Positions 15,503-23,282 of a stretch of 64,000 nt of DNA are shown here, piece after piece (the stretch's first letter is position 1; each line of letters opens with the position of its first letter). Source of the DNA: Verrucomicrobiota bacterium (GTDB taxonomy: Bacteria > Verrucomicrobiota > Verrucomicrobiia > Opitutales > UBA2995); assembly GCA_027622555.1 (NCBI GenBank), contig JAQBYJ010000004.1:1-64000 (forward strand). The letters run 5' to 3'. Position numbers and translations under genes: made by a program. The notes beneath the pieces are model-generated. The model did not search any database. It was given only the letters and a program-made list of their open reading frames with translations, and was not told the DNA's origin.

Positions 15503-17878
15503 CTAATCGACAAACATCAGTTCGTTAGACAAGAGCAACGCCTGGGCGTATAGTCCCCAGCTTGAGAGTGGTTCTTTAGCCTCGGGATCCGTTGAACTGT
15601 TTCCAGCCATCGATTCCTTATAAGCTTCGGCATTCGAAATAAATTCAACACCGGTTTGAAGCTCCTCCTTTGTTCCTTCCCGCTGAAATACAACTTGATA
15701 AAATCGATTGATCCGGGATCTGATATTGGCCTCCTCCTTACCAATTCGGTCAGCGAGGATTCTCGCCTGTCGAATAGTAAACGGGCTATTCATGAGAAAC
15801 AAGGCTTGTTGGGGTACAATCGTTTCAAACCTGGCCGAAGCAGTCGCATTGGGACTGGGGTGATCAAAGGTTCGAAATACACCAGGCGGTTCTGATCGGT
15901 CAAAAAAACTGTAGACGGTCCGCCGGTTAGACGCAGGATCCAAAATATCTTGCTGCACACCACCCATGGTTCGATCCAGGTTGCCAGACACTTCTAATAA
16001 GGTATCGCGCATAGATTCAAAATCCAACCGTTCACTTGGGAAGTGATGCCATAGAGTATTTTCGGAATCTGCTGCCACTGACTTCTGATTGGGCTTGCTC
16101 GATTGCTGATAGGTATTGGAAAGCACGATCAATTTGTGCAGCGCCTTGATGGACCACCCTGACTCGATAAACGAAGTGGCCAACCAATTCAGAAGATCAA
16201 TTTGCACTGGCTCAGGGGTTCGAACCCCGAAATCGCTCGGCGTATCCACCAGTGGGGCACCCGTGTGCCATCCCCATACTCGATTTACGAGGACTCGGGC
16301 AGTTAAGGGATTGTCAGGAGTAGCAATTTCCTGGGCCAATTGCAGCCTTCCACTTCCTTCTGTGTATTGTTTTCTATTTCCCCTTGATAGTATTTCTAGA
16401 AACTGACGGGGAACAATATCCCCCGGAGTTCCAACGTTTCCTCGTTTAAAGATGGGAGAATCTGTTGGTTCGGATACGTCGGCTACAACGTGGGCACGAT
16501 AGGGTGTTCCCGGATGGGTCCATTCAACCGCATCACGCTCTTTCATGATGTCACCGGCGTTCTCAGGTTCTTCAATCTTACGCACAATCCATACCTTGAC
16601 CACCACACGATCCGGATTAAGAGGCGTGCCTTCCTCTTTCAAAAAATTTCTTACCTCGTCATAGCCGTTTTTCCCATCGAGAGCATTTTTGAACAACTGG
16701 TTGTAATGCGCAACCCCGGCTTCTCTGTCGTTTTTGGCATACTTTTCAAACCAATCACTCAAAACTGGATGGGAGCGTCCTTCTTCTGTTTCCAGGTAGG
16801 CAATCCAGCTTCGCAACAAATGAGGACTCACGTTGTTAGTTCCGGCAAACACTGTGAAATCCCCCGTGACACTACCATCATCCTCGATCGTCATGGCTTC
16901 TTCATAAGAATTCAGAAAATCTCCCGCATGATGTCGTTCGTTTAACAACCATAGGTCGATGACTTCCTCCGCTCTTATATCAATTCGTTTTTGGATTTTC
17001 GCTACTTCAGCTAAATAAGATTGGTAATCTGCTTCACTTTCAGGATGCCGAATCACAGGCATTTCCGTCGGAACTTCGGTTGAGTTGAAAATACCGTGAA
17101 GCGAATAATAGTCACTGGTCGGAATAGGATCAAACTTATGGTCGTGACAACGTGCGCAGGAAACAGTGAGTCCTTGCAAGCCTTGGGTTATCACGTCGAT
17201 CTGATCATCAATCAAATCATTCTTTGCCATTAATTTCCCCAAGGTGAGAAAGCCCAAAGCTGCCAACTCACTGTTGTCCTCTCCCAAATCCAACTGGTCG
17301 GCTGCAATCTGTTCCAAAATGAATTGGTCATAGGGTTTGTCGTCGTTAAAGGCTTCGATCACATAATCGCGATAAGTATGAGCGTAGGCATAACGGTTAC
17401 CGTCACGAAAGTTGGGCCTCCCTTTGGTATCAGCGTAACGCGCTATATCCAGCCAATGTCTTCCCCAACGCTCACCGTAAGCAGGTGAAGCCAGTAGCCG
17501 ATCGACTACTTTTTCGAAAGCATCCGCGGATTCATCCGCTACAAAGGATTGTACCTCTTCATAAGTGGGAGGTAGTCCAATAAGGTCATAAGTCACACGT
17601 CGAAGGAGGCTTCGTTTGTCAGCAGGACCATTTGGTTTCAATCCACGCGTTTGAAGATTCGCTAAAATAAACGCATCCACTTCGTTGCCCAAGCCAACAT
17701 CGACTGAGGGAAGCTCTGGCTTTTCCAAAGGGATAAAAGCCCAGTGCGTATCCGCAGACGCCATATTGAATGCCGGAATCTCAGAGCGTTCCTGCGTCTC
17801 CAGAGAGGAGGAAAAAGCAATTGCGCTTCCGATAAGCAGACCGAATGGAGCAAGCAAATATGATTTCCTTAACCTCAT
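15503..17878 (-). CDS. DUF1549/DUF1553 (PSCyt2/PSD1) protein, copy 1
   Basis: A 791-residue exported protein from the ATG at 17878, four bases after the stop of the DUF1501 gene; a start at 17920 would overlap that gene. It has the same architecture as the next gene: signal peptide, PSCyt2 with the [11 protein letters not shown] block, then PSD1 with [13 protein letters not shown] and PQQALFLMNSPF. The two are alike over their whole length, with many identical blocks, and differ mainly in the central region (about residues 290-450), so they arose by tandem duplication. The heme-type CxxCH motif suggests electron transfer outside the cytoplasm. Confidence 0.88.
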   Translation of the reverse strand: MRLRKSYLLAPFGLLIGSAIAFSSSLETQERSEIPAFNMASADTHWAFIPLEKPELPSVDVGLGNEVDAFILANLQTRGLKPNGPADKRSLLRRVTYDLIGLPPTYEEVQSFVADESADAFEKVVDRLLASPAYGERWGRHWLDIARYADTKGRPNFRDGNRYAYAHTYRDYVIEAFNDDKPYDQFILEQIAADQLDLGEDNSELAALGFLTLGKLMAKNDLIDDQIDVITQGLQGLTVSCARCHDHKFDPIPTSDYYSLHGIFNSTEVPTEMPVIRHPESEADYQSYLAEVAKIQKRIDIRAEEVIDLWLLNERHHAGDFLNSYEEAMTIEDDGSVTGDFTVFAGTNNVSPHLLRSWIAYLETEEGRSHPVLSDWFEKYAKNDREAGVAHYNQLFKNALDGKNGYDEVRNFLKEEGTPLNPDRVVVKVWIVRKIEEPENAGDIMKERDAVEWTHPGTPYRAHVVADVSEPTDSPIFKRGNVGTPGDIVPRQFLEILSRGNRKQYTEGSGRLQLAQEIATPDNPLTARVLVNRVWGWHTGAPLVDTPSDFGVRTPEPVQIDLLNWLATSFIESGWSIKALHKLIVLSNTYQQSSKPNQKSVAADSENTLWHHFPSERLDFESMRDTLLEVSGNLDRTMGGVQQDILDPASNRRTVYSFFDRSEPPGVFRTFDHPSPNATASARFETIVPQQALFLMNSPFTIRQARILADRIGKEEANIRSRINRFYQVVFQREGTKEELQTGVEFISNAEAYKESMAGNSSTDPEAKEPLSSWGLYAQALLLSNELMFVD

Positions 17879-17882
17879 TTTG

Positions 17883-19316
17883 TTAGGCAATGAGTTCGTG
17901 CACAACATTTCCGTGCACATCAGTCAGTCGAAAATCCCGTCCGGCGTAGCGGTAGGTAAGTTTTTCATGATCGAATCCCATCAGGTGCATGATTGTCGCC
18001 TGCAGATCATGAACATGGACACGATTTTCAACGGCAGCAAATCCGAATTCATCGGTAGCTCCATGAACGTATCCTCCACGAACACCTCCACCAGCCATCC
18101 ACATGCTGAATCCATGGTTGTTGTGGTCCCGTCCGTTCACCTTCCCCTGGTTGGCCCCCGGTACCGATAGTTCAACTACAGGCGTGCGTCCAAATTCGCC
18201 ACCCCAGATAACCAGGGTATCATCGAGCAGGCCGCGCATTTTAAGATCTTTCAACAAGGCTGCGATTGGCTTGTCGCACTCTCCACACAATCTACGGTGT
18301 TCGCTGTTGTTATCATCGTGGGTGTCCCAAGGTTGACGGAAACCCGTCCACACCTGAGTAAAACGCACACCACGTTCAGCCAGGCGCCGGGCAATCAAAA
18401 GCTGCCGTGCCTGAACTCCTTCGCCATACATTTCGCGGATATATTTCGGCTCTGTCGAAATATCAAAAGCATCGGTCGCTTCCATCTGCATCCGGTAAGC
18501 CAACTCAAAGGATTGAATTCGAGCACCAAAGCGGCCATCGTCAGCTCGTTGCGCAGCATGGAATCCATTTATCTTGTTAAGTAGGTCGAGTTGCTTCCGC
18601 TGAGTACCGTAATCGGTATGGTCGTTTTGAATGTTCTCCAGAAGCTTATCGATATCCTCATGTTTGGTGTCGATGTAGGTTCCCTGGAACGCACCTGGTA
18701 AAAAGGCATTTTGCCAGTTTGCTGCATCCCCAACCGGATAGCCGTTCGGACACAGTACCACGAAGCCCGGAAGATTCTGATTTTCATTTCCCAGTCCGTA
18801 AGTCAGCCATGACCCCATGCTCGGTCGTGCCAATCGAGCATCCCCGCAATTAAGAAGTAAGAGAGATGGCTCGTGATTGGGAACGTCTGTGTACATCGAG
18901 CGAACCAAACAAATATCGTCCATGCATTCACCGACATGGGAAAATAATTCACTGACCTCGGTTCCGTTTTCTCCGTAACGACTAAATTTAAAGGGCGAGC
19001 CAAAAGCTGCGCCAGTGGTGCGCTCAGTCTTCAGGGTAACCGGCAAAGCTTTTCCATGCCATTCATTCAGCAACGGCTTAGGATCAAAAGTATCAACCTG
19101 GGAAGGCCCTCCATTCGCAAAAATTTGGATGACGCGTTTGGCCTTTGGCGCAAAGTGCGGAGCTCGTGGATCCAGTGTTGTGATGGTGCCTGAATCACTT
19201 GCTGCGGCCTGATTTCCAAAAATAGATCCAAGGCTCAGTGCACCAAAGCCCATGCCACAACGGTTTAAAAACTCTCGTCGCGTATAGGCAAAATCTTCTT
19301 GGGGATGGTAATCCAT
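17883..19316 (-). CDS. DUF1501 secreted protein (alkaline phosphatase/sulfatase fold), Tat leader
   Basis: A 477-residue protein with a twin-arginine leader (TRREFLNRCGMGFGALSLG). DUF1501 is related to the alkaline phosphatase/sulfatase superfamily. Visible family patterns are KRVIQIFANGGPSQVDTFDPKP, MYTDVPNHEPS, WTGFRQPWDTHDDN, VIWGGEFGRTP and GRDHNNHGFSMWMAGGGVRGG, with conserved Asp and His residues that could bind metal. It is first in the operon with two DUF1549/DUF1553 genes, the pairing seen throughout PVC genomes. The function is unproven; a role in processing modified glycans is often assumed. Confidence 0.9.
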   Translation of the reverse strand: MDYHPQEDFAYTRREFLNRCGMGFGALSLGSIFGNQAAASDSGTITTLDPRAPHFAPKAKRVIQIFANGGPSQVDTFDPKPLLNEWHGKALPVTLKTERTTGAAFGSPFKFSRYGENGTEVSELFSHVGECMDDICLVRSMYTDVPNHEPSLLLLNCGDARLARPSMGSWLTYGLGNENQNLPGFVVLCPNGYPVGDAANWQNAFLPGAFQGTYIDTKHEDIDKLLENIQNDHTDYGTQRKQLDLLNKINGFHAAQRADDGRFGARIQSFELAYRMQMEATDAFDISTEPKYIREMYGEGVQARQLLIARRLAERGVRFTQVWTGFRQPWDTHDDNNSEHRRLCGECDKPIAALLKDLKMRGLLDDTLVIWGGEFGRTPVVELSVPGANQGKVNGRDHNNHGFSMWMAGGGVRGGYVHGATDEFGFAAVENRVHVHDLQATIMHLMGFDHEKLTYRYAGRDFRLTDVHGNVVHELIA

Positions 19317-19813: not shown

Positions 19814-21262
19814 CTAAGTACCGCAGAACGTTTGATGGACGATTTCTTCTGGTCGCGGAGGTGTTTCGAGATCCGCGTAGTCGGCCTGCTCGGTATAAGG
19901 ATTGGCTAGCGCTTCAACGAGACGATTGAACGGAGCATAGTCGTCAGCATAAGCGCTTTGAATAGCCTGTTCAACGCGGTGGTTACGCGGAATCAGGATC
20001 GGGTTCGCCGAACGCATGTCGGTCAGGTGATTAGTGAAGTCGGCCTCGTTCTTCCAGGAGTTGAACCATGTATTAAAAGGCTCAGTATCTGAAAATAATG
20101 CGCTTATTTCTTCAGTAGATTCTCCAGCGGCAACTCGCGTGAGCTGACGAAAGAAAATCGTAAAATCAACTTTTTGGGAGGCGAGTAATTCGAGGCATTC
20201 TTTAATGAGCTCCACAGGAGCTTCAGGCGGGAGGCCCAATTTGGCACGAAAACGATAGATGTATTGCTCGCCGAATTGATCCGGAAATTTGGCCAACGCG
20301 GCTTCGGCCAACTTGGTTGATTGGTCCGCATCCCCTGACAGCAGCGGCAACAAGGTTTCTGCAAAACGAGTAAGGTTCCAGAATCCAATGTTGGCCTGAT
20401 TGCCCCAGGCGTAGCGAGCACCCCTGTCAATAGAACTGAACACGCATTGCGGATGGAAGGCATCCATAAAGGCACAGGGACCATAGTCGATTGTCTCCCC
20501 CGATATGGCAAAATTGTCGGTGTTCATTACGCCATGAATAAATCCGAGAGAAAGCCAGTGAGCGATCAGGTTTGCCTGCGCGATAACAACGGACTCCAAC
20601 AAAGCAATATAAGGATCATCCGCTTTGGCAGCATCAGGATAATGGCGAGCAATAGCAAAATCGGCGAGTAGTCCCAGAGCCTCGGTATCGTTGCGTGCAT
20701 GAAAATACTCGAATGTTCCGACTCGTATATGACTGGCCGCCACGCGGGTAAATACGCCGCCGTCGATAAGCCCTTCCTGGCGCATGACTCGTTCACCGGT
20801 ACGAACCGCCGCAAGTGCCCTTGTGGTGGGTACACCTAAAGCGGCCATGGCTTCGCTGACAATGTATTCACGGATCACGGGACCAAGCGCAGATTTGCCA
20901 TCACCACTCCGTGAAAAAGGGGTACGTCCGGAACCCTTCAACTGAAGATCGTATCGTGTGCCTTCTGTATCCAGAACTTCACCAAGCAGGATGGCGCGAC
21001 CATCACCGAGTTGTGGTGCGAATCCACCAAACTGATGGCCGGCGTAAGCCTGGGCAATCGGCTGGGCACCATCGGGAACCGCGTTGCCCGAAAGCATCGC
21101 AAGACCCTCGGCTGATTCCAACCAGTCGATGTCAATTGACAACTTTGCCGCCAGTTCCCGATTGATACGAATCAGCTTGGGATCCGAAACCTGGGCTGGC
21201 ACCTGACTCGCATAAAAACGTTCTGGCAGATTAGCGTATGTGTTGTTGAAGGAAATACTCAT
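19814..21262 (-). CDS. selO: SelO family protein adenylyltransferase (YdiU/UPF0061)
   Basis: A 482-residue pseudokinase-fold protein that in characterised members transfers AMP to target proteins in response to oxidative stress. Conserved blocks are present: AQAYAGHQFGGFAPQLGDGRA, LQLKGSGRTPFSRSGDGKSALGPVIREYIVSEAM (nucleotide and catalytic region, about 105-140), GVMNTDNFAISGETIDYGPCAFMD (metal-binding Asn and Asp, about 245-268). Length matches the bacterial family. The following genes on the same strand include a methionine sulfoxide reductase, which fits a redox-stress theme, but they are upstream and separated by 86 bases. Confidence 0.95.
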   Translation of the reverse strand: MSISFNNTYANLPERFYASQVPAQVSDPKLIRINRELAAKLSIDIDWLESAEGLAMLSGNAVPDGAQPIAQAYAGHQFGGFAPQLGDGRAILLGEVLDTEGTRYDLQLKGSGRTPFSRSGDGKSALGPVIREYIVSEAMAALGVPTTRALAAVRTGERVMRQEGLIDGGVFTRVAASHIRVGTFEYFHARNDTEALGLLADFAIARHYPDAAKADDPYIALLESVVIAQANLIAHWLSLGFIHGVMNTDNFAISGETIDYGPCAFMDAFHPQCVFSSIDRGARYAWGNQANIGFWNLTRFAETLLPLLSGDADQSTKLAEAALAKFPDQFGEQYIYRFRAKLGLPPEAPVELIKECLELLASQKVDFTIFFRQLTRVAAGESTEEISALFSDTEPFNTWFNSWKNEADFTNHLTDMRSANPILIPRNHRVEQAIQSAYADDYAPFNRLVEALANPYTEQADYADLETPPRPEEIVHQTFCGT

Positions 21263-21348: not shown

Positions 21349-22167
21349 TTAATATTCTTGGTTAAACTTCCTCACTTTGGCGACCGCATTTACCGCGGCG
21401 GACAAAATACACTCATTCAGTCCGGGATGGATGTAAATCATGTCTGCCAATTCTCGCACATCGTTTTTCAAATGCATAACGGCAAGCACTTGATGCATCA
21501 AGGTACAGGATTCCGGACCTACAAGATGACAACCGAGTATGGAATAATCCGCCGGGGAAACGAGCAGTTTGATTCGTGGATAATCGATCCGCATTGCCAT
21601 GGCACGGGCACTGGCGAGCCAGTCTTCGAATACAAAAACATACGGCGTGCCAGCATCCTTGAGTTGCTCTTCGGTCAACCCAACTGAGGCGACTTCCGGA
21701 TTGGAAAATACAGCATGGGCAATCTGCTGTTCGTCGATTGGCTCATCACTGTTTTTGATAAATTTATGCCGCTGATAACGAACCTCAAACGCGGCCGCAT
21801 GTTGCAACATGTAACGTCCATTCCCGTCTCCAGCTGCGAAGATTCCGTCAACCGCAGTCTGCAAATGTGCATCGACCGGATGGAACCCTTGCTCGTTGGC
21901 TGCGAGCCCGGTTTTTTCAAGTTCAAGTGCCTCGGTGTTTGGTCGACGTCCGATCGCGAAAAGCACGCGTTCAGCTTCGCGAACCCGGTTGGCCGCCTCA
22001 GCGAAACCAATAAGCAATTTCGATGGCACGCAGCCACGGTTCGGACAAGCCCCACCAAGCTTGTCACGCTCCACCAGAACAGTCTTCAAACCCGATTGTG
22101 CCGCCGCGATAGCGAGACCCGAGGCGCGGCCACCCCCAACAACTATGAGATCAAACGTTTCTGTCAT
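21349..22167 (-). pseudogene. Dihydrolipoyl dehydrogenase/mycothione reductase-like protein with large internal deletion
   Basis: A 272-residue frame against about 460 for the class I pyridine nucleotide-disulfide oxidoreductases. The start is normal: FAD-binding VVGGGRASGLAIAAA and the redox-active disulfide in CPNRGCVPSK. After about residue 63 it jumps, in frame, to ERVLFAIGRRPNT, which normally lies about 250 residues from the start, and then continues normally through FAAGDGNGRYMLQHAAA and the dimerisation domain to YIHPGLNE with the active-site His-Glu pair. The NAD-binding domain and part of the FAD domain are gone, so it cannot work as a normal reductase. It starts three bases after the MsrB-MsrA gene, so it is the second gene of that operon. 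Confidence 0.85.
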
Positions 22168-22170
22168 GGC

Positions 22171-23166
22171 CTATGAGTCGGCTTTCAACAGATTTCCAAA
22201 CAGATCGCGGAATTTTTTAAGTTTTGGCTGGATCACCGCGGCACAGTATCCGCCTTGTGGATTCAAGCGGTAATAGTCCTGATGATTATCCTCGGCCGGA
22301 TAAAATGTCTCGAAAGGTGCCAACTCCGTTACAACCGGATTTTCCACCAGTGCTGCCACCTCATCCTTAATAGCAGATGCCTGCTCGAGTTCTTCGTCGT
22401 TTTGATAAAAAACTATACTTCGATACTGTGTCCCTCTGTCAGCTCCCTGCTGGTTCAAAGTAGTCGGGTTATGAGTTCCAAAATGGACCTTTAAAAGATC
22501 CGCGTAAGAGATTTCGCCCGGATTGTATTCCACTTGTATCACCTCGGCATGTCCGGTCGCACCGGAACATACCTCGTGGTATTTAGGGTTGGCAGACTGT
22601 CCTCCGGCATAACCACTGGTGACACTGACAACACCTCGCAATTGTTGAAAAAGTGCTTCAGTGCACCAGAAGCACCCACCGCCAAAAGTGGCCAGTTTTG
22701 TCTTTGGAGCCGGTTTCGAATCGCTCTCAAATTTGGTCAACGAAATTGCATTAATGCAATAACGCAGCCCACTGGGTTCTGGCCCATCTGGAAACACATG
22801 TCCGAGGTGAGCGTCGCAGGTATTACAGGTAACTTCTATCCGCGTCATACCATAACTTCCGTCGTTGTGGTGCGCGATGGCGTTATCGGTAATGGGCTGG
22901 GTGAAAGATGGCCAGCCTGTGCCGCTATCAAACTTCTCTGTGGAATCAAAGAGCGGGGTGTTACAACATAGGCAGCCATACTTTCCAGGCTCATGGAGCT
23001 CACACATGCCTGAGCTGAACGCTCGCTCAGTCCCTTTAAGTCGAGCGACTTGAAATTGCTCAGGAGTGAGTATCTCACGCCATTCCGCTTCCGTTTTAGA
23101 AACCCTGCGATCAGGATCAGGGTTTCCGTTGCTGACAAAGTTGAGAACGTTTTTCCAATTTAGCAT
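22171..23166 (-). CDS. msrBA: Bifunctional methionine sulfoxide reductase MsrB-MsrA fusion
   Basis: A 331-residue fusion that repairs both R- and S-methionine sulfoxide. The N-terminal MsrB half (about 20-145) has four zinc-binding Cys in two pairs (CLCC and CNTC regions), GTGWPSF and the catalytic Cys137 in RYCIN. The C-terminal MsrA half (about 158-315) has the catalytic Cys165 in [16 protein letters not shown] and [10 protein letters not shown]. The ATG at 23166 is used; a TTG at 23181 would add five residues. No signal peptide is evident, so it is probably cytosolic. It is first in a two-gene unit with the truncated disulfide oxidoreductase. Confidence 0.93.
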
Positions 23167-23282
23167 AACAGGTAGTCGCAATGGAGTTAAAATACTTACT
23201 TCAGATTCCGGTCCGTAGCCAAAACAGCTAACACCGAACCAGGGTGTTACGAGGTAATAACCGTTTTACCAGTTTCCAAAAG

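Follow-up and report, generated by a model that had tools for sequence, protein, structure and literature searches.

A disulfide oxidoreductase gene behind msrB-msrA, shortened in frame and very probably being lost

Directly behind a fused msrB-msrA gene in a Verrucomicrobiota genome lies an open frame of 272 codons, in which the first 64 and the last 208 codons of a class-I flavin disulfide reductase are joined in frame. Is this a gene on its way out, a new small protein with a redox disulfide, or a product of the assembly? An earlier note on the same stretch of 64,000 nucleotides (the window, here always the whole of the DNA analysed) offered the first two readings and called for a check of the third. 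The frame carries a deletion, intact relatives of the gene exist, and within the same genus the gene is broken in other ways in some genomes and absent from one. We consider it very probable that the 272-codon frame is an early pseudogene, a recent loss-of-function allele of a gene for a class-I pyridine nucleotide-disulfide oxidoreductase, and the case overall is most likely one of ordinary gene decay, neatly documented.

The locus comprises the following features:

19814..21262 (-), ydiU/selO-like gene, downstream, synteny anchor (ORF list)
21349..22167 (-), disulfide oxidoreductase gene with a 564-nt in-frame internal deletion (ORF, Pfam, structure matches, alignment)
21352..21975 (-), C-terminal 208 codons kept, with the end of the NAD domain (AIGRRPN), the FAD GD motif (GDGNGR) and the dimerisation domain with HPGLNE (Pfam, alignment)
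21967..21978 (-), junction zone, exact cut ambiguous within a short repeat (GCTGAACGC in the window; GCTGACCGC at the left flank in the related genome G004) (alignment)
21976..22167 (-), N-terminal 64 codons kept, with GGGRASG (residue 11) and GGACPNRGC (residue 38) (alignment, motif positions)
22171..23181 (-), fused msrB-msrA, intact, 336 codons from TTG, immediately upstream (ORF, Pfam, NCBIfam)

The shortened frame contains no additional stop or frameshift, and its two parts retain recognisable portions of the parent fold. The N-terminal FAD dinucleotide motif (GGGRASG), the redox-active CxxxxC (CPNRGC, inside GGACPNRGC) and the His-Glu motif of the dimerisation domain (HPGLNE, at 247) are all present. 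Pfam places Pyr_redox_2 on the frame in two stretches, the best of which spans residues 63-126 and profile positions 226-288 of 291, and finds the dimerisation domain PF02852 near complete (residues 149-255, profile 1-107 of 110). Solved dihydrolipoyl dehydrogenases align as two collinear blocks with approximately 190 residues skipped between them; with 2eq7, for example, query 5-93 corresponds to chain 2-85 and query 60-261 to chain 248-448. Open reading frame, Pfam, structure matches and alignment thus agree with the earlier description of an FAD N-terminus with redox disulfide fused in frame to late FAD and dimerisation segments.

In the ortholog alignment, 188 codons (564 nt) are gone whichever of the four closest relatives (G004, G005, G235 and L046) serves as reference, so that the 'about 190 residues' of the earlier note was accurate; measured against the more distant G474, G572 and G036, the loss comes to 552-588 nt. 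The deleted part corresponds to G004 residues 66-253 and includes both the ATGSRP motif (G004 137) and the second dinucleotide fold VIGGGFIG (G004 171), the former being absent from the frame of G000, the genome of the window. The second dinucleotide fold of the NAD(P)H domain and the ATG motif, by which a functional class-I enzyme is recognised, are therefore missing from the 272-residue frame. By the domain borders of the fold, what is left of the protein retains almost nothing of the NAD(P)H domain and is missing a large share of the FAD domain; rather than tracking these borders, the cut runs through the FAD domain. With the one domain mostly gone and the other much reduced, the product should not catalyse NAD(P)H-linked disulfide reduction, and judging from the lost domain the removal of 564 nt would be disabling. 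The ancestral enzyme presumably reduced a disulfide with NAD(P)H and, going by gene order, may have fed the methionine sulfoxide reductases; the shortened product has presumably lost any such function.

The junction falls at window position 21975/21976. In relatives, the flanks of the breakpoint share a direct but imperfect repeat (GC-GA-CG in form, at most about 9 nt), of which GCTGACCGC is the left-hand copy in G004 and GCTGAACGC the copy kept in the window; the repeat is weaker in some relatives, for instance G235. Such a repeat would be a usual substrate for short-repeat deletion and is probably too short for an assembler to collapse. We envisage a deletion of the slipped-strand or annealing type between two short direct repeats that match imperfectly (approximately 9 nt, GCNGANCGN-like), an event that would have removed 564 nt and kept the reading frame by chance.

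A more trivial origin has to be considered, namely that the gene is full-length in the sampled population and that the contig skips its middle through an assembly, amplification or strain-mixture artefact. The genome is indeed a draft of 238 contigs, and amplification chimeras can arise at short repeats. Yet the sequence shared by the breakpoints is imperfect and at most 9 nt, below the word lengths that assemblers usually employ, which makes the collapse that the earlier note wished to see checked unlikely. Moreover, the contig measures 106 kb, with the junction approximately 22 kb in from its nearer end, and a search for the missing middle on the other contigs of the genome returned only paralogs at no more than 33%. 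Since other breakages of the same gene in relatives also make a real deletion likely, we regard an artefact as improbable.

The shortened gene does not stand alone. The fusion upstream scores above the cut-off of NF004042, the NCBIfam model of the bifunctional MsrB/A protein, and the oxidoreductase frame begins 3 nt past its stop codon, which bears out the coupling to the MsrB-MsrA gene that had been proposed. Outside the genus, msrBA or an msrA-containing gene directly precedes the intact oxidoreductase in G235 and in G474. The latter belongs to the same class but another order, and there the msrA-containing gene and the intact oxidoreductase occupy L048 805-1464 and 1504-2856. The pairing thus reaches beyond the order and probably predates the genus. 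It is not general, as an Msr gene lies within the examined stretch at two of 12 loci with an intact gene (L042, L043, L046 and L048-L056), the last seven of which are only 36-38% identical and perhaps not orthologs. On the downstream side, 19814..21262 is presumably a ydiU/selO-like gene. Two adjacent long genes at window 15503-19316 presumably represent the DUF1549/DUF1553 and DUF1501 pair typical of Planctomycetes and Verrucomicrobia.

The decisive evidence for decay comes from how the locus has fared across the genus. Among the five other genomes, one has the gene intact, one has it with a stop, one retains a remnant, one lacks it and in one (G003, 75% complete) the locus was not found. The intact gene, in G004, follows the end of an msrA part; the rest of an msrB-msrA gene ends another contig, so the two are presumably joined. 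In G005, msrB without the MsrA part is followed by an oxidoreductase gene that a single in-frame TGA splits into 318 and 143 codons. A selenocysteine reading of this TGA was ruled out: its alignment column holds varied residues in relatives and no Cys. The G001 locus has a frameshifted 5' remnant after msrB, with residues 4-150 in four pieces and three frames, and the remainder of the gene was not found there. Finally, on the single contig of G002, msrB directly precedes ydiU, and a search with the intact protein against 7 kb at the locus gave nothing better than E 0.24. The msrB frames adjoining the lesion are open in G001, G002 and G005. G001 and G005 are drafts, in which the TGA of G005 or some of the frameshifts of G001 could be sequence errors; the G001 remnant nonetheless lacks most of the gene. 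The coexistence of intact, stop-split, remnant and absent states in one genus points to repeated loss, and the gene seems to have been lost several times there, with the window representing one stage.

The Msr gene at this locus also varies. The MsrA half is absent in G005, G001 and G002, where msrB stands alone (L034 3616-4110, L096 1771-2271 and L097 4706-5239), and the fusion occupies 22171-23181 of the window. In both genomes that combine msrB alone with a trace of the oxidoreductase (G005 and G001), the oxidoreductase is broken. G005 additionally has genes between the oxidoreductase and ydiU that are absent from this position in the window (L034 5519-7389), which we take to be a Crp-like regulator and two small haem-protein-like genes.

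Searches beyond these loci were run at several depths. The genome of the window has no second copy of the oxidoreductase gene but does encode three full-length paralogs, with identities of at most 33% over the C-terminal part and at most 51% over a short N-terminal stretch. Two of these score above the dihydrolipoyl dehydrogenase cut-off of NCBIfam, so the cell still has related activities; the third passed no NCBIfam cut-off among the families listed at E 1e-80. A genus search covering six genomes, including that of the window, found orthologs in G004 and G005, and a scan of named genome records added JAJFLS010000014.1 (L046, 71%) and a fragment at a contig edge (L047). Across the order, five of 273 genomes (that of the window included) match at E 1e-90 or better, the search contributing G235 (75%, msrB-msrA directly upstream) and G036 (55%). 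The copies in G004, G235 and L046 are full-length and free of stops, and those of G004 and L046 cover nearly the whole NCBIfam profile. Neither of the two full-length relatives checked reached an NCBIfam cut-off among the families listed; the best score of the full-length relative P0001 was to TIGR01350, at 343 bits against a cut-off of 408.8. In a sample of the phylum, 53 of 387 genomes match at E 1e-60 or better, giving 54 matches, and each of the 53 besides that of the window is an open frame of at least 457 codons with no internal stops. At this threshold, and with up to four candidates scored per genome (short forms of distant relatives could fall below it), the frame in the window is the sole in-frame short form seen.

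Does the retained part still evolve as a coding sequence under constraint? Protein trees give too little support (32-64%) to settle the order of the close relatives; a nucleotide tree joins G004 and G005 at 75%. A codon model written for the purpose was applied to 264 retained codon columns in five species on the tree (G000,(G004,G005),(G235,L046)), and a single omega over this tree was 0.045. The dN/dS comparison over the retained parts that had been recommended gave an omega of 0.073 on the G000 branch against 0.040 in the background (likelihood ratio 1.61, p = 0.20) with saturated synonymous sites, and so neither proves nor excludes residual function. Separate tests of the G004, G005 and G235 branches gave p = 0.74, 0.89 and 0.49. 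An omega this low, with no significant excess over the background, means that G000 was under constraint along most of its branch. When part of a branch is allowed to be neutral, the best-fitting neutral share is 2% for G000 (95% limit approximately 14% by interpolation) and 0% for G004, G005 and G235. Because synonymous sites are saturated, the profile is shallow, and making the whole G000 branch neutral lowers the fit by no more than 4 log units. In the four relatives, the stretch that G000 has lost is under constraint as well (omega 0.061, against 0.034 for the retained part).

Tests by region are conflicting and unreliable. Omega on the G000 branch is lower in the N-terminal part (0.006 against 0.043, p = 0.057) and higher in the C-terminal part (0.139 against 0.038, p = 0.041); taken by itself, the left-over FAD segment gives a non-significant 0.132 against 0.056 (p = 0.21), and the dimerisation domain gives p = 0.019 in a degenerate fit at a parameter bound. 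Where the four remaining close relatives agree, G000, G005 and G235 have the same number of changed columns (7 of 169 each), with G004 at 4 of 166 and L046 at 25 of 187. Five of the seven changes specific to G000 fall in the left-over FAD segment (5/49 conserved columns there and 2/120 elsewhere, Fisher p = 0.022), and the other two lie one before it (1/40) and one after, in the dimerisation domain (1/80). In the same segment, G004, G005 and G235 together have 3 of 135 columns changed, against the 5 of 49 in G000 (p = 0.032). These counts use the Pfam border of the dimerisation domain; an earlier, hand-drawn border had given six of seven and p = 0.004. The clustering, which involves small numbers looked at post hoc, is only suggestive. 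One of the altered positions is in the GD motif, which reads GDGNGR in G000 and GDVNGR in G004, G005, G235 and L046. Either the deletion happened late compared with the separation of the species, or constraint still acts on the product, and the tests fit both.

These observations bear on the second reading of the earlier note, that the 272-residue product is a working mini-protein: a dimer with a redox disulfide, acting as a dithiol carrier or as a partner of MsrBA without NAD(P)H. The kept frame, the close spacing to msrBA, the Cys pair, the dimerisation domain and the low omega on the G000 branch would all accord with such a role. Against it, none of the other phylum matches is a second short form, the cut passes through the FAD domain, most changes at conserved residues are in the left-over FAD segment (the V to G in the GD motif among them), and three of the five other genomes in the genus have the gene broken or lack it. 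Fold prediction is uninformative here, with a mean pLDDT of 33.8 for the 272-residue protein and a poor 52.5 even for a full-length control, from alignments of only five and four sequences. The mini-protein reading is without positive support, and we hold it to be quite improbable. Its most specific form, in which the in-frame deletion gave a flavin- and NAD(P)H-independent dithiol protein selected as the dedicated redox partner of the MsrB-MsrA fusion, is more improbable still. The points that speak against decay (kept frame, kept Cys pair and HPGLNE, intact msrBA, low omega) fit recent loss as well as residual function. The first reading, a decaying gene, is the one that the series of intact, TGA-split, remnant and absent states favours.

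The locus provides a tidy example of a gene caught during loss, with several states in one genus. It also serves as a warning, in that an in-frame deletion leaves a frame which a gene finder will probably call a protein. Disulfide reductase genes linked to msrBA occur elsewhere in the order and, in one genome, in a different order of the same class; the losses suggest that such a reductase is dispensable in this genus.

Among known systems, the closest are the class-I pyridine nucleotide-disulfide oxidoreductases (the group of dihydrolipoyl dehydrogenase, mycothione reductase and mercuric reductase), with which the 272-residue frame has the FAD motif, CxxxxC, the GD motif and the HPxxxE dimerisation domain in common, and from which it differs by the loss of 188 codons and, with them, of the ATG motif and almost the entire NAD(P)H domain. 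As with bacterial pseudogenes in general (PMC2916853, PMC522871), a presumably disabled copy stands against intact orthologs, and related genomes carry several different lesions. What differs is that the frame happens to have survived here, so that automatic gene calling would probably accept it. The deletion resembles the RecA-independent deletion between short direct repeats (PMC5426353) in that the stretch between the repeats is lost; it differs in that the repeat here is imperfect and is reconstructed from relatives rather than observed before the event.
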